A DNA stretch of 64,000 bases, taken from the NCBI RefSeq assembly GCF_000427465.1, contig NZ_KE386497.1, positions 631,014 to 695,013 of the forward strand. The letters are read 5' to 3'. This document shows, piece by piece, positions 44,014-59,340 of this stretch. The notes under the pieces are model-generated. The model was not told where the DNA came from. It did no database searches and saw only the letters and a list, made by a program, of their open reading frames with translations. The position numbers and the translations under genes are program-made. This DNA is from Sinorhizobium arboris LMG 14919. Its GTDB lineage: Bacteria > Pseudomonadota > Alphaproteobacteria > Rhizobiales > Rhizobiaceae. Each line of letters starts with the position of its first letter. Within the stretch, counting starts at the first letter, position 1.

Positions 44014-46590
44014 CTACGCTGCCAAGTTACGATCGAGAATAAGCGGAATCATCCCTCCCCTTAGAAGCGTTTCCGCTTCCTGCTCCGTTTCCACTGCTGC
44101 ACGCCCGGTCAGTTCCGCGGTTGCGGCAGCGACATAGCGTAGCAAAATCCTGACGTCGCAGCGCGGACGGATGCGCGTGGCCTCAATTTCGATGAGATCC
44201 AGTGCCGAGAGCGAGGGCATCGAGTTTTCGATCACGATCGGTAAAATGCCCATGCCGATCAGATTGGTGCGATGGATGCGCTCGAAGCTTCTCGCAATGA
44301 CGGCGCGCACGCCCAGCAATGCGACGCCTTTGGCTGCCCAATCGCGTGATGAACCGGCTCCATATCGCTCTCCGGCCACGATGACGACGGACCGGCCTTC
44401 CTGCCGGTAGCGTTGGGCGACCTCCCATAGCGGACCTTCCTCCATTGAAGGCGCATGCACGGTCCTTGAGGCTGGTTCCCCGCCAAGCAGGAGGTTGGCG
44501 GCAGTCCGATTGTCGAAGAGACCGCGAACCATGGCCTGCCAATTCCCTCGCCGGGCCGCGTAGACATTGAGATCGTTTGGCCGGTCGCCGGCAGCAACAA
44601 GATGACGCCCGGCATAGCTTTCGGCACTGATCTGGCCGGCGGGAGAGATGTGATCGGTAGTCATGTCGTCGCCAAGCACGAGCAGCGGATGGGCCGCATA
44701 GGTTCCGAGTCGATTGGCTGAGCTCACGGCAGCGAAAGGCGGGCGCCGGATATAGGTCGAGTTTTCATCCCACGGGAAGGTTGGAGATGAGGACGCATCG
44801 AGGGCCAGCCATGCCTCGTTCTTCGCCGCATCGTCAAAGGCTTGGCCAAAATCTTCGCGCTTTGAGAAGTCTCGCAAACTAGCATCGATCTCCTCATCGG
44901 ACGGGAGGAGATCGCGAAGGCGGACGGCAGATCCGTCCGCGGTGTCCGCGACTTTCAAACTTAGCGGATCTCGACAGAATTTTCCGATCATCGAGAGGGC
45001 GACGACGTGCGGCGGCGAGGCGAGAAAGCCGAACTGCAAGCTCGGATGCACCCGCCCTGGAAAGTTGCGATTGCCCGAGAGGAGGGCGGCGGCAACCGTG
45101 CCGTTGGCGATTGCCTCGGCCATGTCCGGCTGGAGTGGCCCCGAGTTGCCGATGCAGGTGGTGCAGCCGTGACCCACGATGCCGAAGCCGATGGCCTCCA
45201 GGTCCACCAGCAGACCGCTCCGTTTCAGGAAGAGTTCGGCGGATGGCGAGCCCGGCGCCAATGATGTCTTGACCCATGAAGGCGGGCGAAGACCGAGCCC
45301 GTTTGCCTTACGGGCGACAAGACCGGCGGCGGCCAGGAGACGCTGGTCGGAGGTGTTGGTGCAGCTTGTAATGGCCGCAATCGCAATCGCGCCGTCCGGA
45401 ATGCCTTTGAAACCTTCGCCAAGCGGCCTGCCAACTGCCGCCTCCAAGGCAGATACAGCTTCAGTCAGCCCCAGCTTGTCTTGCGGGCGCTGCGGCCCGG
45501 CTAAAAGGGCACGCACATTGCCGAGATCGAGTTCGATGACCCCGGTGTAGCGAGGCTCGGCTTCCGGATCGAACCAGAGGCCCATCACACGCGCGGCACG
45601 TTCGACCAGCGAGCAATGTTCAGCCGCTCGACCTGTTTGCCGCAGATATTCGATCGTCCGACCGTCGATTGGAAAATAACCGGTTGATGCGCCATATTCG
45701 GGCGCCATGTTGGCTACGACGGCGCGGTCTCCGCCTGAGAGCGTTGCGACACCCGGCCCGAAGAATTCGACGAACTCTCCTGAGACGTTGTGACGCCGCA
45801 GGAGGTGCGTAACTTCCAGCGCCAAGTCCGTTGACAGCACGCCGGGAGGAAGCCGTCCGGTCAGGCGCACACCGACGACATCCGGAAGCCGTATCGTGAC
45901 GGGGAAACCAAAGAAGACGCTTTCCGCCTCCAGACCGCCCACACCCCAGCCAAGAACGCCGATACCGTTTATCATTGGCGTGTGGCTGTCGGTTCCGATA
46001 AGTGTGTCCGGCGTGGCCCAGGTCTCGCCGTTCCGGTCTTCGAGGCGGATGACGGTCGCCAATTGCTCGAGATTGAGCGTGTGCATGATCCCGGTGCCCG
46101 GTGGATGCACGGTCACACCCGGAAGAGCGGTCGTCGCCCATTTCATCAGGCGATAGCGCTCGCTGTTGCGCTCCATCTCGCGCTGCATGTTGAAGGCACG
46201 AGAGCGGGGCTGTCCATGCATGTCGACGCCGATACTGTGATCGACGGATACGTCAACCGGCAGAACCGGCGTGAGGCTCTTGGGATCGCCGCCGGCTTCG
46301 GCGATGGCGTCGCGCATGGCAGCAATGTCGACCAATGCGGGCACGCAGGTCGTGTCATGCATGAGGACACGCGAGGGATGGAAGGCGATCTCGGTCTCGC
46401 TCGTGCCGCTGACAAGCCAGCCCCGCAAGGCAGTAATCATGGACGGCAGGCGATCGGCGTCTCTTCTGGCGACGTTTTCCAGCAGGATTCGATGGATGTA
46501 GGGGAGGCTCGCGAAATCGCCGCCGAAGATACCGGAGAGATCGAGCGCTTTGACGATTCCGTATGGGGTCGCTAGCTGAAGAAAGCTCAT
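44014..46590 (-). CDS. Aconitase-family hydratase (AcnA-like, divergent)
   Basis: 858 residues with the four aconitase domains. Cluster Cys ligands are in TSCTNTSDQ and GHGCTTCIGNSGP; the swivel domain has RYGAGSSRDWAAKG and RTNLIGMGILPIV. It keeps DHSIGVD and PDTLIGTDSH, but several usually fixed AcnA segments differ: TDSHTTM is TDSHTPM, the GQP before the MxxP loop is GFP, and ATCGFF is ASTGYF. It is shorter than AcnA (about 890). Divergent from the two-winged-helix GntR gene, with shared AAAAGCCAAAAA boxes. It probably isomerises or hydrates a citrate-like pathway compound rather than serving the TCA cycle, though a spare aconitase cannot be excluded. Confidence 0.85.
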   Translation of the reverse strand: MSFLQLATPYGIVKALDLSGIFGGDFASLPYIHRILLENVARRDADRLPSMITALRGWLVSGTSETEIAFHPSRVLMHDTTCVPALVDIAAMRDAIAEAGGDPKSLTPVLPVDVSVDHSIGVDMHGQPRSRAFNMQREMERNSERYRLMKWATTALPGVTVHPPGTGIMHTLNLEQLATVIRLEDRNGETWATPDTLIGTDSHTPMINGIGVLGWGVGGLEAESVFFGFPVTIRLPDVVGVRLTGRLPPGVLSTDLALEVTHLLRRHNVSGEFVEFFGPGVATLSGGDRAVVANMAPEYGASTGYFPIDGRTIEYLRQTGRAAEHCSLVERAARVMGLWFDPEAEPRYTGVIELDLGNVRALLAGPQRPQDKLGLTEAVSALEAAVGRPLGEGFKGIPDGAIAIAAITSCTNTSDQRLLAAAGLVARKANGLGLRPPSWVKTSLAPGSPSAELFLKRSGLLVDLEAIGFGIVGHGCTTCIGNSGPLQPDMAEAIANGTVAAALLSGNRNFPGRVHPSLQFGFLASPPHVVALSMIGKFCRDPLSLKVADTADGSAVRLRDLLPSDEEIDASLRDFSKREDFGQAFDDAAKNEAWLALDASSSPTFPWDENSTYIRRPPFAAVSSANRLGTYAAHPLLVLGDDMTTDHISPAGQISAESYAGRHLVAAGDRPNDLNVYAARRGNWQAMVRGLFDNRTAANLLLGGEPASRTVHAPSMEEGPLWEVAQRYRQEGRSVVIVAGERYGAGSSRDWAAKGVALLGVRAVIARSFERIHRTNLIGMGILPIVIENSMPSLSALDLIEIEATRIRPRCDVRILLRYVAAATAELTGRAAVETEQEAETLLRGGMIPLILDRNLAA

Positions 46591-46621
46591 GTGTTCTCCA
46601 TAGAATGAATTTTAATATTCA

Positions 46622-46674
46622 AAAAGCCAAAAATGGCGCGGTGTCAATGGAGGTTATGCCGCTTTTTGGCTTTT
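46622..46674. promoter_or_regulatory. Inverted AAAAGCCAAAAA boxes (probable operator)
   Basis: AAAAGCCAAAAA (46622-46633) and its exact inverse TTTTTGGCTTTT (46663-46674) lie 29 bases apart in the divergent aconitase/GntR promoter region. A third copy, AAAAGCCAATAA, lies at 47724-47735 before the dehydrogenase gene. The three-copy pattern around the regulator gene marks them as its likely binding sites. Confidence 0.65.
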
Positions 46675-46776
46675 CTAGCAGTCAGATATGCAAATTGTTT
46701 CGCTCGAATTGTTCCCTTTGTCGCCGTCATGGATTAACCTGCGGCGACATCGTTGTTTCATACGGGGTTGATCGAG

Positions 46777-47703
46777 ATGCGCTCCAGCCAACTGGCACAA
46801 ACCATTGCCAATGAAATCACCCTGCTCGTCACTTCGGGAGAGTTGTCGGTCGGCGACCACCTGAAGACGCAACAGCTTGCAGACCGCTTTGGCGTCTCCC
46901 GCTCGCCAGTGCGGGAAGCGATGGACATGCTGGCTGCGCAAGGTCTTCTCGAGCAGAAGGAAAACAGGGGCTTCTTTGTCAAGGAGGTCACCGACAGCAT
47001 CGCCGAACGCGTTCGCGAGGATGCGGAGCCATTCGAGGTGGCCAATGACTACCAGCGTCTTGCAGAAGACTGGCTCACCGACCGGATACCGGCCGAAGTT
47101 ACCGAGCAGATGCTGAGAGAGCGCTACGATCTGACGAAATCGCAGGTCAATGATGTCCTGATGCGTGCGTCTCGTGAGGGATGGGCCGAGCGCAAGCAGG
47201 GTTACGGCTGGCGCTTCCTGCCGGTCGCCAAGACGCCCGAGGCTTTCGAGCAGATCTACCGCTTCCGTATGCTGATCGAGCCGGCCGCGATGCTGGAACC
47301 CGAGTTCCGGCTGGATCGGAAGATCATCGAGGAGCAACGCCGCATTCAGTTGCGCATGCTGGAGACCGATATTGAACGGCTGCCGGCGGAACGGCTTCTC
47401 CACAACGGCGCGCTCTTCCATGAAGAGCTGATCAAGATGTCGAACAATCCGTTTTTCCACCTCTCGCTCGTGCGCGTGAACCGGATGCGGCGTCTGCTCG
47501 AATATCGCTCCCGTGTCGACCGCAGCCGCACTGTGCGGCAGTGCCAGGAACATCTCGAAATTCTTGATCTTCTCGAGCGCGGCGAGGTCGTCGAGGCTTC
47601 TTACGCCATGCGCCGGCACCTCGGCGGTGCCCTCTCCAAGAAATCGCCGGTGACCTGGTCCTGGTCGCACCAGGCGCATGAAAAAGAGCTGCTCGGAAAA
47701 TAG
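46777..47703 (+). CDS. GntR-family regulator with two winged-helix domains and FCD
   Basis: 308 residues, longer than normal FCD regulators (about 220-250). The first winged helix (residues 1-70) is canonical: QQLADRFGVSRSPVREAMDML and a GLLEQKENRGFFVKEV wing. A second, weaker winged-helix-like unit follows at about 90-147 (DRIPAEVTEQMLRERYDLTK, QVNDVLMRASREGWAE, KQGYGWRFLP). The FCD domain then begins near FEQIYRFRMLIEPAAML and holds HEELIKMSNNPFFHL and CQEHLEILDLL. The ATG at 46777 fits homology; a TTG at 46753 is in frame. Positioned between the aconitase and dehydrogenase genes and flanked by AAAAGCCAAWAA boxes, it probably controls the whole island. Confidence 0.85.
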   Translation: MRSSQLAQTIANEITLLVTSGELSVGDHLKTQQLADRFGVSRSPVREAMDMLAAQGLLEQKENRGFFVKEVTDSIAERVREDAEPFEVANDYQRLAEDWLTDRIPAEVTEQMLRERYDLTKSQVNDVLMRASREGWAERKQGYGWRFLPVAKTPEAFEQIYRFRMLIEPAAMLEPEFRLDRKIIEEQRRIQLRMLETDIERLPAERLLHNGALFHEELIKMSNNPFFHLSLVRVNRMRRLLEYRSRVDRSRTVRQCQEHLEILDLLERGEVVEASYAMRRHLGGALSKKSPVTWSWSHQAHEKELLGK

Positions 47704-47715
47704 CCATTGCATTTT

Positions 47716-47739
47716 CAGATTTAAAAAGCCAATAATCTG
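47716..47739. promoter_or_regulatory. AAAAAGCCAATAA box within CAGATT/AATCTG arms
   Basis: AAAAAGCCAATAA (47723-47735) repeats the 46622-46633 box with one change. It sits inside inverted arms CAGATT (47716-47721) and AATCTG (47734-47739), 50-75 bases before the dehydrogenase ATG. Likely operator of the island regulator. Confidence 0.55.
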
Positions 47740-47790
47740 CCCGTGACGTTGCGCGGCCTGTCGGTCGTTGCCTCATGGGAGATTTGTCAG

Positions 47791-48885
47791 ATGAAAATAT
47801 TCGTGACGCCGTGTGATGGGATCGGTCCCGAAATCACCGCGGCAACAATGGAGGTCATGAAGGCCACGGACGCGGCTTTCGATCTGGGCCTCGAATACCA
47901 TTTCGAGGACACGGGCTTCACGAGCCTGGAAAAACATGGTTCGACTCTCCGGGACGAGACGATCGAGCTTGCCCGCACCTTCGACGGCATCATTCTCGGT
48001 CCCCAGTCGCACATGGACTATCCGCCCCGTGACAAGGGCGGCGTGAACGTCTCGGCCGGCTTCCGTGTCAAGCTCGATCTCTACGCCAATGTCCGCCCGG
48101 CACGCTCCCGTCCGTTCCTGAACGACGCCAAGAAGATGGACCTCGTCATCATGCGCGAGGCGACCGAGGGCTTTTACCCCGACCGCAACATGTATGCCGG
48201 CACGGGTGAATTCATGCCGACGCCGGACGTCGCGCTGTCTGTCCGGAAGATCACGGCTTCGGCTTGTGAGCGTATCGCCCGCCAGGCCTTTCTCCTTGCC
48301 ATGAAGCGCAACAAGAAGGTGACCGCGGTCCACAAGGCGAACAATTTCATCCTGACGGACGGCCTGTTCCTCAAGCAGGTGCGCAAGGTCGCAGCCGAAT
48401 TCCCCGAGGTCACACTCAACGAGTTCATCATCGACGCCATGGCGGCGCATCTGGTGCGCGACCCCTCGCGCTTCGACGTGATCGTCGCCACCAATTTCTA
48501 TTCCGACATCCTTTCCGACCTCGCCAGCGAGCTCTCGGGAAGCTTGGGTCTTGCCGGCTCGATCAATGCCAATGCCGAAACCGGCCTTGTCTGCGCCCAA
48601 GCCCAGCACGGCTCGGCGCCGGACATCCAGAATAAAAATATCGCCAACCCGACATCGCTCATCCTCTCGGCGGCGATGATGCTGAGCTGGCTCGGCGAGC
48701 AGCGCGGCTTGCCACAATTCGAGGCAGCCGGCGCGGAAATCGAGCGCGCGGTCGACGAGGTGCTGGCGAATCCGGCGACGCGCACGCGCGATCTCGGTGG
48801 CACCACCAATACCGATGCCTTCGGCGCGGCTGTCGCCAAGGCAGTTCGAAACCGCGGCGGCGACCGGAAGGCGGCCAACGCCTAA
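47791..48885 (+). CDS. Isocitrate/isopropylmalate dehydrogenase-family protein
   Basis: 364 residues of the beta-decarboxylating dehydrogenase family. Visible: GDGIGPEI-type start (CDGIGPEITAATMEV), substrate Arg region LDLYANVRPARSRP, MREATEGFYPDRNMY with the catalytic Tyr, Lys in TAVHKANNFILTDGLF, the metal Asp motif ATNFYSDILSDLASELSGSLG and an NAD-binding GGTTNTDAFGAAVA end. Relatives oxidise and decarboxylate isocitrate, 3-isopropylmalate, homoisocitrate, tartrate or D-malate. The REATEG motif is not exactly that of any of these. GGGAG lies 9 bases before the ATG at 47791. It is paired across the regulator with an aconitase paralogue, as isomerase/dehydrogenase couples are in leucine and lysine pathways. 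Confidence 0.85.
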   Translation: MKIFVTPCDGIGPEITAATMEVMKATDAAFDLGLEYHFEDTGFTSLEKHGSTLRDETIELARTFDGIILGPQSHMDYPPRDKGGVNVSAGFRVKLDLYANVRPARSRPFLNDAKKMDLVIMREATEGFYPDRNMYAGTGEFMPTPDVALSVRKITASACERIARQAFLLAMKRNKKVTAVHKANNFILTDGLFLKQVRKVAAEFPEVTLNEFIIDAMAAHLVRDPSRFDVIVATNFYSDILSDLASELSGSLGLAGSINANAETGLVCAQAQHGSAPDIQNKNIANPTSLILSAAMMLSWLGEQRGLPQFEAAGAEIERAVDEVLANPATRTRDLGGTTNTDAFGAAVAKAVRNRGGDRKAANA

Positions 48886-48888
48886 GCC

Positions 48889-48923
48889 TTTGCACTTTGG
48901 GTATTATAAATCCAAAGTGCAAA
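48889..48923. promoter_or_regulatory. 12-bp stem hairpin / operator before the ABC importer
   Basis: TTTGCACTTTGG (48889-48900) pairs perfectly with CCAAAGTGCAAA (48912-48923) around GTATTATAAAT. It begins 3 bases after the dehydrogenase stop and lies 80 bases before the binding-protein ATG. No T run follows. It could be an mRNA-protecting hairpin or an operator with a TATTATA centre. Confidence 0.5.
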
Positions 48924-49003
48924 ATTGCAGGATGTGAGGGCGCGAGCCCTCGCGCACATGCCCGGAGGAGCAATGGAGCCGGGCGCATTTTGGGAGATCA
49001 GAA

Positions 49004-50110
49004 ATGAACAGGCACATTACCGTCCGGTCGACAGCCTTCGCAGTCACCACGGCCATCATCACAGCATTTGCAGTCCCTGCACTGGCGCAGGACGTCCCTG
49101 CCGGCTACCCGGCCGATTATGCCGACTTGATCGCCAAGGCGAAGGAAGAGGGCACCGTCTCAGTCTACACGTCGACGGATGCAGCGCAGTCGCAAAAACT
49201 GCAGGACGGCTTCACCAAGAAATACGGGATCAAGATCGCCTATAACGATCTTGGGACCAACGGCACATATAATCAGGTGATTTCCGAAGCGGCGGCCGGG
49301 CAAACCACGGCCGACGTCGTCTGGAGCTCGGCGATGGATCTGCAGATGACTCTGGTCCAGGACGGTTATGGGGTCGAATATGCTTCGCCTGAAGCAGCGA
49401 AGTTGCCCGCCTGGGCGAACTACAAGAACACGCTTTATGCCACGACCGTAGAGCCGATCGGCGTGATCTACAACACCAAGGCGCTGTCGGAGGACAAGCT
49501 GCCGAAGACCTATGCTGAGATGATCACCTTCCTGAGGGACAACAAGGCGATGCTGCAGGGCAAGGTGGCGACTTTCGATCCTGAAAAGAGCGGCTCCGGC
49601 TTCCTTCATCACTCCAATGACGCGCGCAACCGCAAGGACTTTTGGGACCTCGCCAAGGCCATGGGCGAGGACGGTGCCAAGATCTATTCGAGTTCAGGCG
49701 GCATGAAGGAAACGGTCGTGTCCGGCGAGAACGTCATCGCGATCAACATCATCGGTTCCTACGCGCTCGATTGGGTAAAGGAGAGCCCGAACCTCGGTGT
49801 CCATTTCGCTAAGGATTATACGCCGGCTTTCTCGCGTCTGGCCTTGATCACCAAGGATGCTCCGCATTCGAACGCCGCAAAGCTCTTTGTCGACTACATG
49901 CTGTCGGCCGAGGGACAGGCGCTCCTGGCGGAAGGTGGCCTGCCGTCCGTCCGCGAAGACGTGACCGCCGGTCTCAACATCAAGACGCTCAATGAGCGTG
50001 TCGGTGGGGGCCTGAAGCCGATCGCCGTCGATGAAGGCGTGCTCGAATACATGGATCAGATGAAGCGCGTCCAGTTCCTCAACGACTGGAAGGCAGCGCT
50101 CGGCCGCTGA
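49004..50110 (+). CDS. ABC transporter substrate-binding protein, ferric/AfuA type
   Basis: 368 residues. Sec signal peptide (STAFAVTTAIITAFAVPALA, cleavage near residue 29 before QDVPAG), then a family 1/6-type binding fold: YADLIAKAKEEGTVSVYTS, QKLQDGFTKKYGIKIAYND, GQTTADVVWSSAMDLQM and a C-terminal LFVDYMLSAEGQALLAEGG. Homologues bind Fe(III), 2-aminoethylphosphonate, spermidine or organic ligands. GGGAGATC precedes the ATG. A strong palindrome separates it from the permease gene. In this island the ligand may be a chelating polycarboxylate or hydroxy acid (inference). Confidence 0.87.
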   Translation: MNRHITVRSTAFAVTTAIITAFAVPALAQDVPAGYPADYADLIAKAKEEGTVSVYTSTDAAQSQKLQDGFTKKYGIKIAYNDLGTNGTYNQVISEAAAGQTTADVVWSSAMDLQMTLVQDGYGVEYASPEAAKLPAWANYKNTLYATTVEPIGVIYNTKALSEDKLPKTYAEMITFLRDNKAMLQGKVATFDPEKSGSGFLHHSNDARNRKDFWDLAKAMGEDGAKIYSSSGGMKETVVSGENVIAINIIGSYALDWVKESPNLGVHFAKDYTPAFSRLALITKDAPHSNAAKLFVDYMLSAEGQALLAEGGLPSVREDVTAGLNIKTLNERVGGGLKPIAVDEGVLEYMDQMKRVQFLNDWKAALGR

Positions 50111-50121
50111 TGCATCGCCGT

Positions 50122-50145
50122 CCGCGGCGCGATATCGCGCCGCGG
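50122..50145 (+). promoter_or_regulatory. Perfect 24-bp GC palindrome between binding protein and permease
   Basis: CCGCGGCGCGAT followed directly by its exact inverse ATCGCGCCGCGG, 11 bases after the binding-protein stop. In RNA it would fold as a hairpin of up to about 10 bp. It has the same position as the hairpin after the Aap-like binding protein and would likewise protect or partly terminate the upstream message. Confidence 0.55.
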
Positions 50146-50173
50146 CTCTGCTCCTTCATGCGAGAGGCAAGGA

Positions 50174-51934
50174 ATGTCTACCCACGCTCAAGCACCGGCC
50201 GCAGTCGAGCTTTCAAAAGCCGCAGCCGAAAAGAAATATCCGGCGAGAATGCCCCGCCATGGCAATGCAAGCCTCTATAGGCGCATCGTTATCGGTCTGC
50301 TTGCAATCGCCGTTCTGGCGCCCGTCTGCCTGATCATATACCAGAGTTTCCTGACCGCCGCCTTTTTCAGCCCGCGTGCCAGGTTTGGTCTCGACGCCTA
50401 TCGCTATGTCTTCTTCGACAAGAATTTTTATAAGGCGCTCGGCACGACGGCGATCTTCTCCTTCGGTATGGTCGCGATCGCCGTGCCGCTCGGTGGCCTG
50501 CTTGCCTTCCTGATCACCCGCACTGACATCAAGGCCAAGCGCCTGCTCGAAATCCTCGTGCTGGTGCCGATGTTCATTTCTTCCATCGTGCTCGCCTTCG
50601 GCTACACCGTTTCGGTCGGCCCGACGGGTTTCGTTTCACTTTTCATCCGTGATATCATCGGCGTCGTTCCCTGGAACATCTACAGCCTGCCCGGCATGAT
50701 CCTGATCGCCGGCCTGAGCCATGTGCCGCATGTCTATCTCTATGTCTCCGCGGCGATGCGCAATCTTCCCTCCGATCTCGAGGAGGCCGCGCGCACGACC
50801 GGTGCCTCCGTCTGGCAGGTTTCGCGCGACGTGACCCTTCCCATGGTGCTGCCGGCTCTGATCTTCGCGGCGGCACTCAACGTCCTGCTCGGCTTCGAGA
50901 CCTTCGGCATTCCGCTGGTGCTCGGCGACCCGAACGGCATCATGGTTCTCACCACCTATATCTATAAGCTCACCACCTTGTTCGGCACGCCGACCTATCA
51001 GCTGATGGCCGTAGTCGCCGTGGTGTTGGTGCTGATCACGCTTCCGCTCGTCTGGATGCAGCGCAAGCTGCTGCGCAATGCCCGCAAATATGCGGCGATG
51101 GGCGGAAAGGGTGCGCGCGTCTCCACTCTCAAGCTCGGCAAGAGCGGCCAGATCATCGCCCTTTCGATTATCGGGCTTTGGCTCTTCGTCTCCGTCGCCC
51201 TGCCGATCGGCGGCATCACGGTGCGTGCCTTCGTCGATGCCTGGGGTGAGGGCGTGAGCCTTTTCGACCAGCTGACGCTCGCAAATTTCAGCCGTATGCT
51301 GGAAGTCCCGAGCCTCTACAACGGCATCGTCAACACGATCCTTTTGTCGGTTGTCGGCGGCGCGGTCGCGGTTGCGATCTATCTGGCAGTCGGCCTTGCC
51401 GGCCATCGCAATTGGGGCATGTCGAACACGATCCTCGATTACATCGTGCTCTTGCCACGCGCTCTACCGGGCCTGGTCGTCGGTCTTGCCTTCTTCTGGG
51501 TCTTCTTGTTCGTGCCGTTCCTCACGCCGCTGCGGCCGACCCTGGTCAGCCTCTTCGTGGCCTACTTGGTCGTCGGCCTCTCCTATGGCCTCAGGTTGCT
51601 GCAAGGCACGCTCATACAGGTCGCGCCGGAACTTGAAGAGTCGGCGCGGACGACCGGGGCCACGATCGGCCGCACCTGGAAGGACGTGGTGATCCCGATC
51701 GTCCGTCCCGGCCTCGCCGGCGCCTGGGCGCTCATCATGATCATCTTCCTTCGCGAATATGCGACGGGTGTCTACCTCATGGGCGCCGGCACCGAGGTGA
51801 TCGGCTCGCTGATGGTCTCGCTCCTGCAGACCGGCGCGATGAACACCATCGCCGCGCTCGCCCTCATCAGCATCGTATTGACGGGCGCAGGCCTCGCACT
51901 CGCCCTCCGTTTGGGAGCAAAAATCCATGACTGA
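50174..51934 (+). CDS. ABC transporter permease, ferric type, two fused permease domains
   Basis: 586-residue FbpB-like permease with two homologous halves. Each half carries an EAA loop: DLEEAARTTGASVWQVSRDV near residue 200 and ELEESARTTGATIGRTWKDV near residue 487. About twelve membrane segments are visible, the first being IVIGLLAIAVLAPVCLIIYQ. A single protein therefore forms the membrane channel. The gene ends inside the start of the ATPase gene (8-base overlap). Confidence 0.9.
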   Translation: MSTHAQAPAAVELSKAAAEKKYPARMPRHGNASLYRRIVIGLLAIAVLAPVCLIIYQSFLTAAFFSPRARFGLDAYRYVFFDKNFYKALGTTAIFSFGMVAIAVPLGGLLAFLITRTDIKAKRLLEILVLVPMFISSIVLAFGYTVSVGPTGFVSLFIRDIIGVVPWNIYSLPGMILIAGLSHVPHVYLYVSAAMRNLPSDLEEAARTTGASVWQVSRDVTLPMVLPALIFAAALNVLLGFETFGIPLVLGDPNGIMVLTTYIYKLTTLFGTPTYQLMAVVAVVLVLITLPLVWMQRKLLRNARKYAAMGGKGARVSTLKLGKSGQIIALSIIGLWLFVSVALPIGGITVRAFVDAWGEGVSLFDQLTLANFSRMLEVPSLYNGIVNTILLSVVGGAVAVAIYLAVGLAGHRNWGMSNTILDYIVLLPRALPGLVVGLAFFWVFLFVPFLTPLRPTLVSLFVAYLVVGLSYGLRLLQGTLIQVAPELEESARTTGATIGRTWKDVVIPIVRPGLAGAWALIMIIFLREYATGVYLMGAGTEVIGSLMVSLLQTGAMNTIAALALISIVLTGAGLALALRLGAKIHD

Positions 51935-53003: not shown

Positions 53004-53016
53004 CAAGGTCTCAAGC

Positions 53017-53046: not shown

Positions 53047-53069
53047 ACCTCCTAACCAGGATAGTCAAG

Positions 53070-53729
53070 ATGACGTCACGAAAAAGGATCGCGCTTGTTC
53101 ACGCGACGCCGATCGCAATCGATCCGATCGGGATCGCCTTCGAGGCCGGCTGGCCTGAGGCCGAGCGGGTGAACATCCTCGAAGATAGCCTTTCTCCAGA
53201 CAGAGCGAGAGACGGCGCTATCACTGACCAAATGTCCGATCGTATCGTGGCGCTGGCCAGGTACGCCCGCATGATCGGCTCCGACGCGGTCCTCTTCACC
53301 TGTTCGTCCTTCGGCACCGCTATCCAGCGGGCGGCGAGCACACTGGATATTCCCGTTCTCAAGCCCAACGAAGCAATGTTCGAAGCCGCGATCCGCAAGG
53401 GTGGCCGTACGGCCATGCTCTACACCTTCCCGCCGGCGCGGGAGGGGATGGAAGCCGAGTTCCGTGAAGAGGCTTCGCGAGTGAGCCCTTCAGCCGAAAT
53501 CGAAAGCTTTCTCGTCGACGGAGCCATTGACGCGGTCCGCGCTGGCGACGAGGCGACCCACAACCGTTTGGTAGCCGAGACCGCAGCCACGATCGAGGGC
53601 TTCGACGCGATCACGCTGGCGCATTTCTCGACAGCGCGGGCGCTTGAGGCCGTGCAGGCGGCCACGCCTATCCCGGTTCTGACCAGCCCGGATGCGGCGG
53701 TTGCCAAGCTTCGCCGCCTGCTGACCTAG
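53070..53729 (+). CDS. Asp/Glu racemase-superfamily protein
   Basis: 219 residues with the aspartate/glutamate racemase fold (also used by maleate isomerase, hydantoin racemase and arylmalonate decarboxylase). It starts with RIALVHATPIAIDPI, and the first catalytic Cys is Cys78 in LFTCSSFG. The usual second Cys region (GCT/GCA) is AHFSTARA at 184-191, with no Cys, so a two-Cys racemisation is unlikely. Single-Cys members do decarboxylations or isomerisations instead. First enzyme after the importer; cytoplasmic. Confidence 0.78.
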   Translation: MTSRKRIALVHATPIAIDPIGIAFEAGWPEAERVNILEDSLSPDRARDGAITDQMSDRIVALARYARMIGSDAVLFTCSSFGTAIQRAASTLDIPVLKPNEAMFEAAIRKGGRTAMLYTFPPAREGMEAEFREEASRVSPSAEIESFLVDGAIDAVRAGDEATHNRLVAETAATIEGFDAITLAHFSTARALEAVQAATPIPVLTSPDAAVAKLRRLLT

Positions 53730-53779
53730 GCGGAAAGCGGGCATCTTCAGACGAGCAGTTCAAACTGGAGGAGACTTGA

Positions 53780-54721
53780 ATGAGCAGTGCAGATCTGACA
53801 CGCAGGCAAATGTTGCAAGGGATGGCGGTGGCGGCTGCTGCGGTCCTTTCACCGGCCAATGCTTTTGCGCAGGAAGTTCCCTTCTCGGCGGGGAGTGCCC
53901 ATCCGAAGTTCAAGGCGCCACCGAAGACCTGCGACGCGCATTTCCACATCTACAACAGCAAGTTTCCCGCGGCCGCCAATGCGAGCCTCGTTCCTCAGGA
54001 TGCGAGCGTAAGCGATTATCACCGTCTCAAGGAGCGGCTTGGCTTCGAACGCAGCGTCATCGTTCAGCCCTCCACCTATGGAACGGATAATTCCTGCCTG
54101 CTCGAAGCCTTGGCCGAGCTCGGGGATGCGGCGCGAGGAATAGCCGTGGTCGACACGTCCGTAACCGACGGTGAACTCAAGCGGCTCGACGCCGCCGGCG
54201 TTCGTGGCATTCGCTTCAATCTCGCGAGAGCCGGCGCCACGACCGTGGACATGATCGAGCCGCTTGCGAAACGCGTTGCGGATCTCGGCTGGCATATCCA
54301 AGTTCATATCAAGGGCGACAGCATCGCAGAACATGCCGGGCTGTTCCAGAACCTTCCGGTCATCACGGTCTTCGACCATCTCGGCCGAATCCCGCAACCA
54401 GCCGGCAAAGAGCATCCGGCCTTCAAGGTCGTGGCCGACCTGCTCGAAAAGGGCAAGGCCTACACCAAGCTCTCCAGCATCTATCAGGACACGCTGGTCG
54501 GGCCGCCGACCTACGCGGACATGGGTGGTTTGGCGAAGGCCTATCTGGCGTTAGCACCTGACCGCGTGCTCTGGGCCACCGATTGGCCCCATCCTTCACC
54601 CGGCAAGTCCGGCAAGCCGGATGATGCGCTGCTGATGGACCTTTGCGCCGAGTGGGCGGGAGATGATCCGACCCGAAGCAAGATCTTTGTCGAGAATGCC
54701 GCCGGCCTTTACGGCTTTTGA
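53780..54721 (+). CDS. Amidohydrolase-2 family protein, probably Tat-exported (LigI-like lactonase candidate)
   Basis: 313 residues. The N-terminus has a twin-arginine-type signal (LTRRQMLQGMAVAAAAVLSP, cleavage near AFA-QE at residue 30). The barrel has metal ligands H54-F-H56 in CDAHFHIYNS, His in WHIQVHIKGDS, FDHLGRIPQP and the Asp in ATDWPHPSPG. The family includes 2-pyrone-4,6-dicarboxylate lactonase and other lactone or amide hydrolases, and decarboxylases. An exported form suggests that a lactone is opened outside the cytoplasm before import. GGAGG precedes the ATG. Confidence 0.8.
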   Translation: MSSADLTRRQMLQGMAVAAAAVLSPANAFAQEVPFSAGSAHPKFKAPPKTCDAHFHIYNSKFPAAANASLVPQDASVSDYHRLKERLGFERSVIVQPSTYGTDNSCLLEALAELGDAARGIAVVDTSVTDGELKRLDAAGVRGIRFNLARAGATTVDMIEPLAKRVADLGWHIQVHIKGDSIAEHAGLFQNLPVITVFDHLGRIPQPAGKEHPAFKVVADLLEKGKAYTKLSSIYQDTLVGPPTYADMGGLAKAYLALAPDRVLWATDWPHPSPGKSGKPDDALLMDLCAEWAGDDPTRSKIFVENAAGLYGF

Positions 54722-54753
54722 GCGTGGGCCGACGAACGGAAAGAGAAACAAGA

Positions 54754-56025
54754 ATGCTACTCGGGGTCATTGCCGACGATTTTACCGGCGCGAGCGATAT
54801 CGCCAATACGATTGTCAAGGGGCTGCCTGGGCAGGGTGGTCTTCGCACGGTGCAATATCTCGGTGTCCCGAGTGCAGCTTCCGACCCGGAGGTCGAGGCC
54901 GGCGTGGTCGCGCTGAAAAGCCGCTCGATCGATGCTGGACTGGCCGTCAGGCAATCGATCGATGCGCTGCAATGGCTGCTCGAACAGGGTTGCCAGCAGA
55001 TCGTCTTCAAATATTGCTCGACCTTCGATTCGACGCCGGCAGGCAATATCGGTCCGGTCGCCGAGGCGCTTGCCGAAGCGCTCGGCGTCAAGGGTGTCGT
55101 CGCCTGCCCGGCATTCCCAGGGGCGGGACGCACGGTCTATCAGGGGCATCTCTTCGTGAAGGACCGGCTCTTGAACGAGTCCGGTCTTCAGAACCACCCG
55201 CTCAATCCGATGACCGATGCCGATATCCGGCGCTGGTTGCGGCTGCAGACGGTCTCGGATGTCGGCCATGTCGACATCTCGGCCGTTCAGGCTGGCCCCA
55301 CGGCGATCGAGGCGGCCTTGCGCAGACATGGTGAGGAAAACCATGTCCTCGTCATCGTCGACGCGGTCACCGATGACGACCTCGTCGCGATCGGCAAGGC
55401 GGTCGCGGATCACCGGCTTGTTACGGGGGGATCGGGGATAGCCATTGGCCTGTCGGCAAACTTCATTGCCCGGGGGCTGGCCAAGGGCGAGGGTTCCGCG
55501 ACAGTCGGCATCGACGGACCGGAGGCGATCCTCGCCGGCAGTTGCTCCGGCGCCACGCGGCAACAGGTCGAAATCCATAAGAAGGATCATCCGACCCTAG
55601 CCATCGATGTGGCAGGCGTGATGAGCGGAAAGGTCGCAACCTCGGACCTGACCTCGTTCCTGCTCGCCAACCTGGGGAGAGCGCCGCTCGTCTATTCCTC
55701 CGGCACCCCCGACGAGGTTCAGGCGATCCAGGCGCGCTTTGGCCGTGAGAAGGTTGCCCATACCCTCGACACTCTCTTTGCCGACACTGCCCGGCAATTG
55801 ATCGATGCCGGAATCCGCCGGCTCGTTGTCGCCGGAGGCGAGACATCGGGTGCAGTGGTTTCGGCGCTCGATATCGGGGCGCTGGCGATCGGGCCCGAGA
55901 TCGATCCCGGCGTTCCGGTTCTTTTCTCGAACGGAGATGAACCCGTAGCGCTAGCGCTCAAGTCCGGCAATTTCGGAGCGCCGGATTTCTTCGCCAAGGC
56001 GCTGGAAAGGCTTGCAGGACGATGA
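54754..56025 (+). CDS. otnK: Four-carbon acid sugar kinase, 3-oxotetronate 4-kinase type
   Basis: 423 residues of the DUF1537 kinase family. N-terminal domain: GVIADDFTGASDIANT and VFKYCSTFDSTPAGNIG; middle: YQGHLFVKDRLLNESGLQNH then PLNPMTDADI, a near match to OtnK; C-terminal nucleotide domain: VAGGETSGAVVSAL and IDPGVPVLFSNG. OtnK is known to phosphorylate 3-oxotetronate (from erythronate or threonate) at O4. The ATG at 54754 is preceded by GGAAAGAG. ATGA-coupled to OtnC, its partner in the described pathway; the usual dehydrogenase LtnD and isomerase OtnI are missing from this island. Confidence 0.87.
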   Translation: MLLGVIADDFTGASDIANTIVKGLPGQGGLRTVQYLGVPSAASDPEVEAGVVALKSRSIDAGLAVRQSIDALQWLLEQGCQQIVFKYCSTFDSTPAGNIGPVAEALAEALGVKGVVACPAFPGAGRTVYQGHLFVKDRLLNESGLQNHPLNPMTDADIRRWLRLQTVSDVGHVDISAVQAGPTAIEAALRRHGEENHVLVIVDAVTDDDLVAIGKAVADHRLVTGGSGIAIGLSANFIARGLAKGEGSATVGIDGPEAILAGSCSGATRQQVEIHKKDHPTLAIDVAGVMSGKVATSDLTSFLLANLGRAPLVYSSGTPDEVQAIQARFGREKVAHTLDTLFADTARQLIDAGIRRLVVAGGETSGAVVSALDIGALAIGPEIDPGVPVLFSNGDEPVALALKSGNFGAPDFFAKALERLAGR

Positions 56026-56660
56026 CCGCTGAAGGCAAATTGCGCGAGGACATCGTTCGCCTGTCGAAGTCGCTGTTCGACCGCGGATTTTCGGTGGGGT
56101 CGGCCGGCAATATCAGTGCCGCAGTCGACGACGGCATTCTCATGACGCCGACGAACTCCTGCCTTGGATTTCTGGATCCGGCACGGCTTTCGAAACTTGA
56201 CCGTAATGGCAATCACATCTCAGGCGACAAGCCTTCGAAGGAAGTGTTCCTCCATCGGGCTTTCTACGAGACCCGACCGCAAACCGGAGCAGTCGTCCAT
56301 CTCCATTCGACTTTTGCGACGGCACTGTCGTGCCTGACCGGCATCGATCCCAGTGACTGCATTCCGCCATTGACGCCCTACGTCGTCATGCGGGTCGGCG
56401 CGGTGAAGCTGCTGTCTTACGTCAAGCCGGGCGATGAGAAGATGGGCGACATGATCCGCGAGCTCGCCGGCCGCTACGCCGCCGTGCTGCTTGCCAATCA
56501 CGGCCCGGTCGTCACCGGCAGGGACATAGCCACGGCGGTCTACGCTGCCGAGGAGCTCGAAGAGACGGCGAAGCTCCTCATCCTGCTGAAGGAAGCGCCG
56601 AAGCGAATGCTATCGGACGAAAACGTTCACGAACTCAAAGCCGTGTTCGGCGCATATTGA
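56022..56660 (+). CDS. otnC: Class II aldolase family, 3-oxotetronate 4-phosphate decarboxylase
   Basis: 212 residues. Zn site His pair in AVVHLHSTFATALSCL and later His in LLANHGPVVTGRD; also SAGNISAAVDDGILMTPTNS, GDKPSKEVFLHRAFYETRP and PPLTPYVVMRVG, all closely matching OtnC. The known reaction decarboxylates 3-oxotetronate 4-phosphate to dihydroxyacetone phosphate. Overlaps otnK by ATGA, so the two steps are coupled. Confidence 0.87.
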   Translation: MTAEGKLREDIVRLSKSLFDRGFSVGSAGNISAAVDDGILMTPTNSCLGFLDPARLSKLDRNGNHISGDKPSKEVFLHRAFYETRPQTGAVVHLHSTFATALSCLTGIDPSDCIPPLTPYVVMRVGAVKLLSYVKPGDEKMGDMIRELAGRYAAVLLANHGPVVTGRDIATAVYAAEELEETAKLLILLKEAPKRMLSDENVHELKAVFGAY

Positions 56661-56673
56661 AGGAGACATTTGG

Positions 56674-57147
56674 ATGAAGACCGCGGATCTGGTCGATGCC
56701 CATGGCGACGATGTTCAATTCTGCAATCTTCCTTTTCTGAAGCTCGGGAAGAGGAAATCCTTTTCCGGCCCGATCGTGACGGTGAAATGCTTCGAGGATA
56801 ACGCGCTCCTGAAATCCGAGCTGCAAAAGCCGGGCGAGGGAAGGGTGATGGTCGTCGATGGCGGCGCGTCGAGCCGCGTTGCGCTCCTCGGCGACCAGAT
56901 CGCGATGATCCTCCGCGACAACGGCTGGGCCGGCATCATCATCAACGGTTCCATCCGAGACAGTGCCGAGATCGACGACATGGACGTTGGCGTCTTCTGC
57001 CTTTCCATGACCCCAAAGAAGTCCGTGAAGGACGGAGCCGGCAAGGCTGGCGTCCCTGTCCAGTTCGGCGGGGTGACCTTTGCCCCTGGCGCCTACGCCT
57101 ATGTCGATGCCGATGGCGTGCTGACGAGCAGCCGCGACCTGCGTTGA
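56674..57147 (+). CDS. RraA-family protein, possible 4-hydroxy-4-carboxy-2-oxo acid aldolase
   Basis: 157 residues with the RraA fold: MVVDGGASSRVALLGDQIA (allosteric/active-site loop region), GWAGIIINGSIRDSAEI carrying the conserved Arg-Asp, and PVQFGGVTFAPGAYAYVDAD. The fold is shared by RNase E inhibitor RraA (about 161 residues) and by aldolases that split 4-hydroxy-4-methyl- or 4-carboxy-4-hydroxy-2-oxoadipate to pyruvate/oxaloacetate. The catabolic context favours an aldolase or oxaloacetate decarboxylase, but the short length and N-terminus (DVQFCNLPFLKLG) look most like RraA. AAGGAGA before the ATG. Confidence 0.75.
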   Translation: MKTADLVDAHGDDVQFCNLPFLKLGKRKSFSGPIVTVKCFEDNALLKSELQKPGEGRVMVVDGGASSRVALLGDQIAMILRDNGWAGIIINGSIRDSAEIDDMDVGVFCLSMTPKKSVKDGAGKAGVPVQFGGVTFAPGAYAYVDADGVLTSSRDLR

Positions 57148-57210
57148 CGCCGCGAAATGGCCGCGCGCTGCGAGGCCTCACTCAAGCAAAACGAATGTAG
57201 GAGAATGGCG

Positions 57211-58611
57211 ATGATCGTCACCACCAACCCGGCCACCGGCGAGGAACTCGCCCGATACGAACTCCACGACGACGCTTATGTCGATGCAGCGCTTTCGGCC
57301 GCTGCCAAGGCGCAAAAGGCGTGGCGCAAGAAGCCCGTCGAAGAGCGGGTTCGACTGCTTGCCGCGATGGCCAGGGTGCTGCGTGCCGGCAAGTCGCGCT
57401 ATGCCGAGATGATCACCCGCGAGATGGGCAAGCCGATCGTCGAGTCCGAGGCGGAAATCGAAAAATGCGCCTATAACTGCGACTTCTATGCCGAGCACGC
57501 GGCGCAACACCTCGCCGACGAGGCAATCGCCTCGAACGCGACCGAGTGCGCCGTCGTCTTCGACCCGCTTGGTGTCGTGCTCGCCATCATGCCCTGGAAC
57601 TATCCGTTCTGGCAATTTTTCCGTTTCGCCGCGCCGGCCTTTGCCGCCGGGAACGGCGCCGTGCTGAAGCACGCGAACAACGTGCCGGAATGTGCGCTCG
57701 CCATCGAGGAGATCATGCGCCAGGCAGGCTGCCCCGAGGGCCTTTTTGCCACCCTGCTGATCGAGCCGGCCAAGGTTGCCGGCATCATTGCCGACGATAG
57801 GATTGCAGCCGTCACGTTGACGGGGTCCACGGAAGTGGGCGCCATCGTCGCGTCGCAGGCCGGCAAGGCGCTGAAAAAGCAGGTACTGGAACTCGGCGGC
57901 TCCGATCCCTTCATCGTGCTTGCCGATGCCGATCTCGAAGAGGCGACGAGCGTCGCGGTTAAGGCACGCTACATCAATGTCGGGCAGTCATGCGTCAACG
58001 CCAAGCGCTTCATCGTGGAGGAAAGCATCGCCGACCGTTTCGTCGCGCTGTTCTGCGAGAAGGTTGCAAACCTGAAGGTGGGGAACCCCACAGAGGGAGA
58101 TACAAATATCGGTCCGATGGCGCGGGAAAACCTGATGACAGGCCTGCATGCACAGGTCGAAAAGACGATTGCCGCGGGTGCTGAACTCAAGCTCGGCGGC
58201 GCGCCGCTGGACCGGCCGGGCTATTTCTATCCTCCGACCGTGCTCGACCATGTACGTCCGGAGATGGCCGCGTTCTGTGAGGAGACCTTCGGTCCCGTCG
58301 CCGCCGTCATCCGCGTCAAGGATGCCGACGAAGCGGTTCGGCTGGCCAACCAGACCGAATACGGTCTCGGCTCGGCGATCTGGACCGGGGACGTGGAGCG
58401 CGCCCGCCGGCTTGCGCACGACATCGACGCGGGCGCCGTCTTCATCAACGGCATGGTCGCCTCCGACCCCAGATACCCCTTCGGCGGGATCAAGCGTTCA
58501 GGCTATGGCCGCGAGCTCGGTGTCTACGGCATCCGCGAGTTCGTCAACATCAAGACGGTCTGGATCGGCCCGGCCAAAGCAGCCCAGCCTGTCGCCAAAG
58601 CGCCCGAGTGA
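57211..58611 (+). CDS. Aldehyde dehydrogenase (succinate-semialdehyde dehydrogenase-like)
   Basis: 466 residues, NAD(P) aldehyde dehydrogenase. Cofactor-binding MPWNYPFWQFFR and the LTGSTEVG turn; catalytic Glu in LELGGSDP and Cys in NVGQSCVNAKR; oligomer/substrate motif EETFGPVAAVIR; C-terminal PFGGIKRSGYGRELG. It is in the YneI/Sad and GabD-like succinate-semialdehyde group. I chose the ATG at 57211 because GTAGGAG is 7 bases upstream; ATG at 57205 is too close. It would oxidise an aldehyde from the pathway (for example tartronate, malonate or succinate semialdehyde; inference). Confidence 0.88.
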   Translation: MIVTTNPATGEELARYELHDDAYVDAALSAAAKAQKAWRKKPVEERVRLLAAMARVLRAGKSRYAEMITREMGKPIVESEAEIEKCAYNCDFYAEHAAQHLADEAIASNATECAVVFDPLGVVLAIMPWNYPFWQFFRFAAPAFAAGNGAVLKHANNVPECALAIEEIMRQAGCPEGLFATLLIEPAKVAGIIADDRIAAVTLTGSTEVGAIVASQAGKALKKQVLELGGSDPFIVLADADLEEATSVAVKARYINVGQSCVNAKRFIVEESIADRFVALFCEKVANLKVGNPTEGDTNIGPMARENLMTGLHAQVEKTIAAGAELKLGGAPLDRPGYFYPPTVLDHVRPEMAAFCEETFGPVAAVIRVKDADEAVRLANQTEYGLGSAIWTGDVERARRLAHDIDAGAVFINGMVASDPRYPFGGIKRSGYGRELGVYGIREFVNIKTVWIGPAKAAQPVAKAPE

Positions 58612-58621
58612 GGAGCACCGC

Positions 58622-59038
58622 ATGACCCAGCCAGCAATCCTCCGCCCTAAGGAGCTCAAGAGCAACGATCGTGGCAACGGCGCCCGCACGACGCCGCTCG
58701 TGACGCGCAGATGCGGCTCGACGAGCATGATCAACGGGATTACCGCCTTTGACCCGGGGGCTTCGATCGGCCTCCACAAGCACAATTGCGAAGAGAGCGT
58801 GATGATCCTCGACGGTCAGGCGATCGCCGAGATCGACGGCGTCCGCTACCCGCTCGGACCCAACGACACGACCTGGATCCCGGCAAACGTGCCCCATCGG
58901 TTCATCAATGCGTCCCAGACCGAGCCGATGCGCATCTTCTGGATCTATGCCTCGATCGATGCGACGCGGACGATGATGGCGACCGGGGAGGAGCGCCCCA
59001 TCGACGCGGAACATCACCAGCAGGGAACACAATCATGA
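58622..59038 (+). CDS. Cupin-domain protein
   Basis: 138 residues forming one cupin barrel. Motif 1: PGASIGLHKHNCEESVMILDG (here HKH and Glu are the metal ligands); motif 2: GPNDTTWIPANVPHRFIN with the fourth ligand His. Such small cupins act as isomerases, dioxygenases or sugar-acid binding proteins. It starts 10 bases after the aldehyde dehydrogenase with GAGGAG upstream and overlaps the next gene by ATGA. Function unassigned. Confidence 0.8.
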   Translation: MTQPAILRPKELKSNDRGNGARTTPLVTRRCGSTSMINGITAFDPGASIGLHKHNCEESVMILDGQAIAEIDGVRYPLGPNDTTWIPANVPHRFINASQTEPMRIFWIYASIDATRTMMATGEERPIDAEHHQQGTQS

Positions 59039-59340
59039 TTGTTGAAGCCGCGGAAATTACGGTCAAGCCCGGCAGCGAGGCGCATTTCGAAGCGGGCGTG
59101 TCCCAGGCCGCGCCCCTGTTCTTGAGAGCGAAAGGCTGCCACGGCGTGGCTCTGCATCGGGTGGTGGAGACACCGCGCGTTTATCGTCTGCTGGTGAAAT
59201 GGGAGACGGTCGACGACCACATGGTCGGCTTCCGCAACTCCGAGGATTTCCAGGCGTGGCGGCGCCTCGTCAGCTCCTGTTTCGATGGCGCCCCAAAGGT
59301 GACCCATTCCGAAGCCGTGGCTTTGTCAAACAACGATTAA
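59035..59340 (+). CDS. Antibiotic biosynthesis monooxygenase (ABM)-fold protein
   Basis: 101 residues, ferredoxin-like ABM/DUF fold: IVEAAEITVKPGSEAHFEAG, GCHGVALHRVVETPRVYRLL and VDDHMVGFRNSEDFQAWRRL. Homologues are small cofactor-free oxygenases, heme-degrading enzymes, or accessory proteins in catabolic operons. Coupled to the cupin by ATGA and apparently the last intact gene of the island. Role unknown. Confidence 0.78.
   Translation: MIVEAAEITVKPGSEAHFEAGVSQAAPLFLRAKGCHGVALHRVVETPRVYRLLVKWETVDDHMVGFRNSEDFQAWRRLVSSCFDGAPKVTHSEAVALSNND

Follow-up and report, generated by a model that had tools for sequence, protein, structure and literature searches.

Described pathways for L-threonate and D-erythronate run through LtnD, OtnI, OtnK and OtnC and end in dihydroxyacetone phosphate (DHAP). 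We analysed an island of genes from Sinorhizobium arboris LMG 14919 (positions 44014 to 59340 of the window, which is the whole stretch of 64,000 nucleotides that was analysed). The island has equivalogs of OtnK and OtnC, and probably the same exit, but it has a β-decarboxylating dehydrogenase (DH), an Asp/Glu-racemase-fold protein (RAC) and an aconitase-type protein (ACN) in place of LtnD and OtnI, and different transporters. This widely conserved gene set appears to degrade a hydroxy acid to an intermediate of glycolysis, often with an aconitase of its own, and we classify it as a variant among tetronate-type catabolic systems, whose aconitase comes from an uncharacterised clade. More specifically, we propose a catabolic regulon under the control of GntR, in which exchangeable entrances lead to a common trunk (DH-RAC-OtnK-OtnC); we give this a probability of roughly 0.5.

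The island and its relatives

Open reading frames (ORFs) and family scans placed every gene named in the initial annotation at its coordinates, and confirmed the ATGA overlap of otnK (54754-56025) and otnC (56022-56660). We adopted starts for otnK (54754) and for the genes for GntR (46777), DH (47791), the aldehyde dehydrogenase (57205), the cupin (58622) and the ABM protein (59035). Proteins in this list were assigned by family scans, with any further evidence in brackets.

44014..46590, minus strand: ACN, AcnA-type aconitase of a third clade, 858 amino acids (ORF, tree)
46610..46624, no strand: operator-like palindrome TTTTA-N5-TAAAA with 1 mismatch, between ACN and the regulator (motif scan)
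46777..47703, plus strand: GntR/FCD-family regulator
47712..47726, no strand: operator-like palindrome with 1 mismatch, between the regulator and DH (motif scan)
47791..48885, plus strand: DH, β-decarboxylating dehydrogenase of the Iso_dh family (closest solved relatives are homoisocitrate dehydrogenases)
49004..50110, plus strand: periplasmic binding protein, ferric/aminoethylphosphonate-type
50174..51934, plus strand: ABC permease, two fused domains
51927..53003, plus strand: ABC ATPase
53070..53729, plus strand: RAC, Asp/Glu-racemase-fold protein with one invariant cysteine, C78 (alignment, model)
53780..54721, plus strand: AMH, PF04909 amidohydrolase, probably a lactonase, with a twin-arginine translocation (TAT)-type N-terminus
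54754..56025, plus strand: OtnK, 3-oxotetronate kinase family (DUF1537)
56022..56660, plus strand: OtnC, 3-oxotetronate 4-phosphate decarboxylase family
56674..57147, plus strand: RraA-like aldolase/decarboxylase-fold protein
57205..58611, plus strand: aldehyde dehydrogenase, closest to succinate-semialdehyde dehydrogenases (under the cut-off)
58622..59038, plus strand: cupin
59035..59340, plus strand: ABM (antibiotic biosynthesis monooxygenase-fold) protein

OtnK and OtnC score above the cut-offs of their NCBIfam models (NF043035, 539.9 vs. 350 bits; NF043034, 323.4 vs. 250 bits) and are predicted to act on 3-oxotetronate and its 4-phosphate. The initial annotation had found none of the usual feeders of a tetronate pathway. 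This is correct for the island genes, which include no LtnD, PdxA or OtnI, but not for the genome (6.85 Mb, 7 contigs): LtnD, OtnI and a second OtnK, each over its NCBIfam cut-off, are encoded elsewhere. Because a canonical LtnD-OtnI-OtnK locus lies on another contig, the island's OtnK and OtnC are a second set.

We scanned contigs with an alignment of 30 DH sequences, found 326 relatives and retained the top 80 (loci are numbered L001 and so on; the DH of L005, from Sinorhizobium kostiense DSM 13372, matches that of the window at 100% identity). We dropped 23 of the 80 for short flanks, which left 57 full-flank loci with at least 9 kb on each side of DH. Presence was judged by tblastn, with identity thresholds of 40-60% set gene by gene. 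Among the full-flank loci, 53 have RAC, 52 OtnK, 52 GntR, 49 OtnC, 37 RraA, 36 ACN and 25 the ABC importer; the aldehyde dehydrogenase (18), the cupin (18), AMH (14, at ≥40% identity) and the ABM protein (5) complete the list. At three further loci (L020, L021 and L038), ACN and DH share a contig but are 13-20 kb apart, which brings the count of ACN to 39/57. OtnK fell under the threshold at L018, L032, L039, L046 and L083, although L083 (Erwinia) has an OtnK at 39% identity. From the source genome's gene numbers, an AcnA-type gene would be expected by chance at about 0.6% of 21-kb loci and a DUF1537 kinase at 1.2%, instead of 36/57 and 52/57; since the loci are related, the comparison is indicative only. 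The initial annotation had staked its proposal on the aconitase and dehydrogenase clades being conserved alongside otnK and otnC, and they are. The DH-RAC-OtnK-OtnC set occurs in Alpha-, Beta- and Gammaproteobacteria.

At 15 loci, DH and ACN lie within one run of same-strand genes (gaps of at most 350 bp, using ORFs called in this analysis), with many gene overlaps. For example, L077 and L055 have TctC-TctB-TctA-DH-RAC-OtnK-OtnC-ACN (L066 is identical except that OtnC is missing). In L019, the run is Tam, GntR, DH, the binding protein, permease and ATPase, RAC, OtnK, OtnC and ACN. L046 has SGL-DctQ-DctM-DctP-DH-ACN, with DH and ACN paired in the absence of RAC or OtnK. Judging by sequence, ACN, DH and otnK/otnC are a conserved regulon.

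The candidate operator is the palindrome TTTTA-N5-TAAAA, with a wider consensus of about TGCATTTTA-N5-TAAAATGCA. Within the 1.51 Mb of the 80 loci, on which the palindrome was also discovered, there are 94 sites with up to one mismatch. Of these, 58 are within 50 kb of sequence upstream of ACN, GntR or DH, which is 47-fold the density elsewhere, and the excess persists in AT-matched windows. Sites precede ACN at 18/46 loci, GntR at 14/69 and DH at 31/80. The 64-kb window holds exactly two such sites, in the ACN/GntR and GntR/DH intergenic regions. An operator-like site at both promoters supports the earlier suggestion that ACN shares its regulation with the DH operon. In relatives, the palindrome is also found before tam, an OtnI-like gene, dctA, TctC and a PF10282 lactonase. 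As for the regulator itself (46777-47703), there is a long gap between its N-terminal helix-turn-helix domain (residues 5-67) and its FCD domain (158-281), and this stretch may be a second winged helix.

Neighbouring genes in relatives support DHAP as the product, as the initial annotation had it. In Rhizobium NXC24, tpiA directly follows otnC. Cupriavidus taiwanensis has DH, AMH, RAC, RraA, OtnK and OtnC intermixed with DHAP-to-phosphoenolpyruvate (PEP) genes, namely tpiA, gpmA, eno, NADP-dependent glyceraldehyde-3-phosphate dehydrogenase (GAPDH), pyk and ppc. In A. vitis, fba and fructose-bisphosphatase follow RAC-OtnK-OtnC (otnK matches there in two pieces).

The same trunk genes could instead form a variant pathway for threonate or erythronate, in which DH replaces LtnD and oxidises its substrate without decarboxylating it. 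In favour, RAC-OtnK-OtnC of A. vitis and Rhizobium Q54, and RAC-OtnK of Erwinia, have an α-hydroxy acid oxidase beside them in the position of DH. Ldh_2 and OtnI-like genes are present in addition in some relatives, and OtnK and OtnC are over their equivalog cut-offs. But the source genome already has LtnD-OtnI-OtnK, many relatives have tricarboxylate-type transporters, and ACN, Tam and the lactonases would be left unexplained. We consider this explanation unlikely.

The aconitase-type protein and its neighbours

ACN is a paralogue of the housekeeping AcnA, which is encoded elsewhere in the genome and is 45-46% identical. ACN scores below the cut-offs of the models for AcnA (TIGR01341, 904.9 vs. 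945 bits) and AcnD (TIGR02333, 705.9 vs. 1419.85 bits), while two other members of its clade are narrowly over the AcnA cut-off (989.3 and 977.2 bits). The clade (48 rows, including Pantoea/Erwinia and stand-alone copies) is monophyletic with support of 1.0 in a tree with just four outgroups (E. coli AcnA, two rhizobial AcnAs and one AcnD). On this tree, ACN groups with neither AcnA nor AcnD but forms a third clade of aconitases.

H78, T80, C82 and W684 are present in all 41 operon rows (the window and L005 are identical); the corresponding residues of the genome's housekeeping AcnA are Q, F, G and H. Across the whole clade, H78 and T80 are found in 48/48 rows and C82 and W684 in 46/48. We take the H78/T80/C82 loop to be the one that holds Gln72 of mitochondrial aconitase. 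At four positions, ACN and the outgroup AcnD have the same residues (H, M, P and L), and the cysteine motifs of ACN are conserved. (An alignment to IRP1 led us to suspect the loss of a substrate arginine of the R580 type, but the housekeeping AcnA of this genome has no arginine there either, and we abandoned the idea.) Three roseobacter- or Labrenzia-type genomes (L174, L175 and L177) have yet another aconitase-type subfamily, which has an HDMLG loop and 41-42% identity to ACN.

These changes could also mark an inhibitor-tolerant aconitase that sustains the tricarboxylic acid (TCA) cycle when citrate look-alikes (the substrate of the pathway or intermediates from it) block the housekeeping enzyme. 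Tam would clear the trans-aconitate that forms, and DH might be a spare isocitrate dehydrogenase. The substrate loop is changed and the catalytic motifs are kept, Tam adjoins the regulator, Cupriavidus recruits other central-metabolism isoenzymes, and ACN is neither obligatory nor given a step by redox counting in the minimal gene set (see below). However, ACN also occurs in separate modules that include a transporter and a lactonase, which suggests a catabolic substrate, and this explanation does not predict that ACN is absent from all 9 TctABC-2 loci unless the substrate there is harmless. We rate it as quite improbable.

Clustering of ORFs assigned TctC/TctB of type 1 to 24 loci and those of type 2 to 12 loci, and 30 loci have the ABC binding protein; L030, which has an ABC importer beside DH in addition to TctABC-1, is counted twice. 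Among loci with at least 6.5 kb to the right of DH, ACN accompanies TctABC-1 in 18/22 (17/21 without L030), TctABC-2 in 0/9 and the ABC importer in 23/29. This is suggestive of an association between ACN and the type of transporter. For the island's own binding protein (49004-50110), the closest solved relatives are mostly annotated as iron-binding, and a literature search on the ligands of structures 7F6E and 3C9H found nothing relevant.

For 24 of the 34 loci without ACN beside DH, we searched the whole genomes for an ACN-type gene. Among the 40 aconitase-type genes that we examined, 7 have the HDTTC loop of ACN; the other 33 have the AcnA-type loop QDFTG (24) or other loops (9), and none has HDTTC. 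Seven genomes have a gene of the ACN clade elsewhere, and we read 19 kb around it in six of them. Four (L160, L161, L163 and L165) have GntR, a PF10282 lactonase, a major facilitator superfamily (MFS) transporter and ACN, in that order, and two of these, both Bradyrhizobium (L163 and L165), have the palindrome at the GntR and lactonase promoters. In L162 and L164, a TctC gene and GntR are nearby. The lactonase-MFS form of the module also occurs in NXC24, and the TctABC form in A. pusense Bbcg2-2 and Paracoccus AK26. We infer that ACN, a carboxylate transporter and often a lactonase make up an entrance module. ACN appears to belong to the entrance and not to the trunk, and it probably serves one of the entrances to DH-RAC-OtnK-OtnC.

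The initial annotation had proposed a carboxylate or its lactone as the substrate, and the tricarboxylate-type transporters and lactonase-type genes of relatives likewise suggest a lactone-forming carboxylate. It had also proposed that an exported amidohydrolase opens the lactone. As a general step this is not supported: AMH is at just 14 of the 57 full-flank loci. The prediction that AMH is exported rests on its twin-arginine-type N-terminus, which is below the cut-off of the Pfam TAT model (20.5 vs. 22.7 bits).

Separate modules might also mean that one regulator controls the use of two substrates. ACN (with Tam, PrpF or helper proteins of the solute-binding-protein (SBP) fold in relatives) would feed trans-aconitate or a similar tricarboxylate to the TCA cycle, and DH-RAC-OtnK-OtnC would degrade tetronates, with co-induction because plants and algae supply both. 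Indeed, ACN occurs away from DH, with TctABC and GntR or with MFS and a lactonase, and RAC-OtnK-OtnC (or, at one locus, RAC-OtnK) occurs beside the α-hydroxy acid oxidase with no DH or ACN nearby. Also, relatives of DH (~50% identity) adjoin TcuAB and genes named 4-oxalomesaconate tautomerase. A Tam gene is present in 8/80 loci (the sole representative scanned, from L019, is above the cut-off of NF002463, 362.8 vs. 297 bits), and the Cupriavidus relative has a PrpF-family gene; these trans-aconitate genes also count in favour of the proposed regulon. On the other hand, ACN is in a tight run with DH-RAC-OtnK in distant bacteria, the operator is common to both in many loci, and DH and ACN are still paired in L046, which has no OtnK. 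Overall, we find this explanation rather doubtful.

Some of the loci encode solo SBP-fold proteins that, by eye, have no evident signal peptide (L086, L087, L096, L102 and L110). Their neighbours are tam, PrpF, TcuAB-linked DH or acnA. The protein from L102 distantly resembles amino-acid binding proteins and cyclohexadienyl dehydratase, and the solo proteins are possibly enzymes derived from SBPs. A second solo family is near the α-hydroxy acid oxidase, RAC and OtnK (L103, L104 and L105). We rejected aconitate isomerase as their identity: the oxidase-linked proteins and those linked to tam, PrpF or TcuAB are unrelated families, and a link to the Pseudomonas enzyme is only presumed. Another candidate helper, ORF cluster c25, has no Pfam match and is probably antisense to otnC.

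Chemistry of the proposed route

DH hits 17 NCBIfam models and is below the cut-off of every one (the best match is 269.7 bits to a subfamily model with a cut-off of 409.8). Its best solved match is a homoisocitrate dehydrogenase, and the only other relatives found in the source genome are 34-37% identical. DH has the motif REATEG, while homoisocitrate dehydrogenase and the TcuAB-linked relatives have RENTEG. An N-x-S motif is not diagnostic of specificity, as it occurs in TcuAB-linked DHs as well, and we set aside a structure model of DH (pLDDT of 72.8, with residues 89-97 and 124-142 under 50). On a Bradyrhizobium plasmid (L099), a DH relative (47.5%) is in a run with an aconitase-type large subunit, isocitrate lyase/PEP mutase, type II GAPDH, Prs and ribulose-phosphate epimerase, which looks like a biosynthetic cluster.

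RAC matches PF01177 (54.1 bits, cut-off 31). The top matches of its structure model (pLDDT of 93.8) are glutamate, aspartate, hydantoin and allantoin racemases, with arylmalonate decarboxylase slightly lower, all at 9-19% identity. The racemase branch of the Asp/Glu superfamily has two catalytic cysteines. In RAC, C78 is invariant (61/61), and no second cysteine is found among the alignment columns with >90% conservation. Our guess, from the modelled fold and the gene order with OtnK-OtnC (which persists where the α-hydroxy acid oxidase replaces DH, with OtnK alone adjacent at one locus), is that RAC performs a keto-enol isomerisation instead of OtnI. Separately, a RAC relative (43%) on a Pseudosulfitobacter plasmid (L106) is beside genes for malonyl-CoA decarboxylase and synthase.

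Enzymes with the fold of DH would convert HOOC-CH(OH)-C(X)(COOH)-R to HOOC-CO-CHX-R. To reach 3-oxotetronate (HOOC-CH(OH)-CO-CH2OH) after tautomerisation, X would be OH and R would be CH2OH, which is 2-hydroxymethyltartrate (C5H8O7). Alternatively, R would be CH(OH)COOH, with a second decarboxylation (C6H8O9). If the products are one NADH, DHAP and CO2, then the balance should work only for acids of formula C4H8O5, C5H8O7 or C6H8O9, or their hydrates or lactones. The plain product of ACN and then DH (a 2-oxo acid with CH2 at C3) would need an extra oxidation to become 3-oxotetronate. The minimal gene set offers none, so citrate, aconitate and hydroxycitrate are unlikely to be fully funnelled to DHAP. 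As sole substrates, citrate or trans-aconitate would require three oxidations, and hydroxycitrate and itatartarate (a compound that appears in PMC9875883) two. Dihydroxycitrate and pentarates fit by formula but leave no place for ACN.

Redox counting is therefore the strongest objection to a simple series from ACN to DH to OtnK. Along with the genomes that have no ACN-type gene (17 of the 24 chosen), it opposes the initial idea of one substrate passing through all three. Other parts of that interpretation have support, namely the conservation, the shared operator-like site, the exit at DHAP and the carboxylate or lactone. The role of ACN may be to isomerise the acid that enters, to process a second substrate or to shield the TCA cycle.

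Under the regulon with exchangeable entrances, DH would oxidise and probably β-decarboxylate a 2-hydroxy acid to a tetrulosonate, RAC would shift a proton through keto-enol chemistry and so yield the isomer, a 3-oxotetronate, that OtnK can use, OtnK would phosphorylate it, and OtnC would decarboxylate the product to DHAP, with triose-phosphate isomerase next. At the entrance in S. arboris, AMH would open a lactone-forming polycarboxylate, the ABC system would import the acid, and ACN, with its AcnD-like substrate residues, would convert it to the substrate of the trunk. Given a malate-type mechanism for DH and the yield of DHAP and one NADH, the formula of the trunk substrate would be C6H8O9 or C5H8O7, and 2-hydroxymethyltartrate and pentarates are examples of the latter. 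Without decarboxylation by DH, it would be C4H8O5, which overlaps with the tetronate variant. More tentatively, ACN could be a third functional class of aconitase-type enzyme, distinct from AcnA and AcnD, that opens a new route. Starting from a polyhydroxy-polycarboxylate able to form a lactone, the route would proceed by isomerisation, oxidative decarboxylation and tautomerisation, with a trunk substrate of C5H8O7 or C6H8O9, and reach DHAP by way of 3-oxotetronate. It would be common to rhizobia, roseobacters, Granulosicoccaceae, Erwiniaceae and plasmid-bearing Burkholderiaceae. We regard this fuller version as possible, with the odds somewhat against it.

Several results weigh against the proposed regulon. 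First, the contrast between TctABC-1 and TctABC-2 (Fisher exact test, P = 3.5 · 10−5, or 5.0 · 10−5 without L030) is overstated by these P values, because parsimony on the DH tree gives about three transporter switches, with weak node support (0.64-0.89). Second, the 17 genomes without an ACN-type gene imply that ACN is not obligatory (one of these, L032, also has no RAC or OtnK beside DH), and OtnC is missing from 8/57 loci at the threshold used. Third, the palindrome is absent from 7 of 10 loci with an ACN module, including NXC24, and an eighth (L107) has a site away from ACN; across the source genome it is not enriched (21 sites vs. 85 for a reversed control pattern). Fourth, the function of RAC is guessed from fold and gene order, and 9/80 loci also have an OtnI- or hydroxypyruvate-isomerase-like gene (the single representative scanned is below both cut-offs). 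Finally, the ligands, products and activities of the island proteins are predicted, and we know of no natural compound that fits ACN, DH, RAC, OtnK and OtnC in series.

If the proposal is correct, then plant- and algae-associated bacteria have a new carbon source and pathway, an aconitase clade that is presently annotated as plain AcnA is defined by its different substrate loop, and annotations and metabolic models can be corrected. Two features open the question of the substrate to direct tests: the operator-like site that ACN and DH share, and the way in which ACN and the transporter change together.

The window has other genes on both sides of the island. At 59430-63314 (minus strand) are nickel-related genes for a NicO transporter, a PF00731 protein, a protein with no Pfam match and a PF01969 nickel-insertion protein; the last three presumably resemble LarB, LarE and LarC of the nickel-pincer cofactor pathway. 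At 38256-43109 (plus strand) are genes for hydantoinase B, an aminotransferase, a protein of the NAD epimerase/dehydratase family and an FAD oxidase. Two ORF clusters from this region (c31 and c32) recur beside the DH-ACN pair of Nioella (L046), adjoining hydantoinase A.

Comparison with known systems

Among the matches listed in our literature searches, no paper describes this gene set (coverage of subscription journals was thin). Degradation of L-ascorbate by Cupriavidus necator reportedly uses a lactonase, an amidohydrolase and a PdxA decarboxylase and exits at 2-oxoglutarate via lyxonate. That route resembles the island in that a β-propeller protein and an amidohydrolase act on a branched carboxylate lactone and feed an NAD-dependent decarboxylase, but it has no aconitase or OtnK/OtnC. 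Homoisocitrate, isocitrate, isopropylmalate and tartrate dehydrogenases belong to the Iso_dh family, as does DH, but DH passes none of their models and has REATEG instead of RENTEG. Bacillus velezensis assimilates trans-aconitate with TarA/TarB/TarR, according to PMC11495376. As a similarity, a PrpF-family gene and Tam are found beside relatives of the island. The window differs in having neither PrpF nor Tam among the genes scanned, and its predicted exit is DHAP. The 2-methylcitrate cycle with AcnD/PrpF, together with AcnA, differs in that ACN is under both cut-offs and in a clade of its own, with no PrpC, PrpB or PrpF among the window and island genes scanned by family. But ACN is likewise an Fe-S hydro-lyase, and its H, M, P and L residues are those of AcnD.

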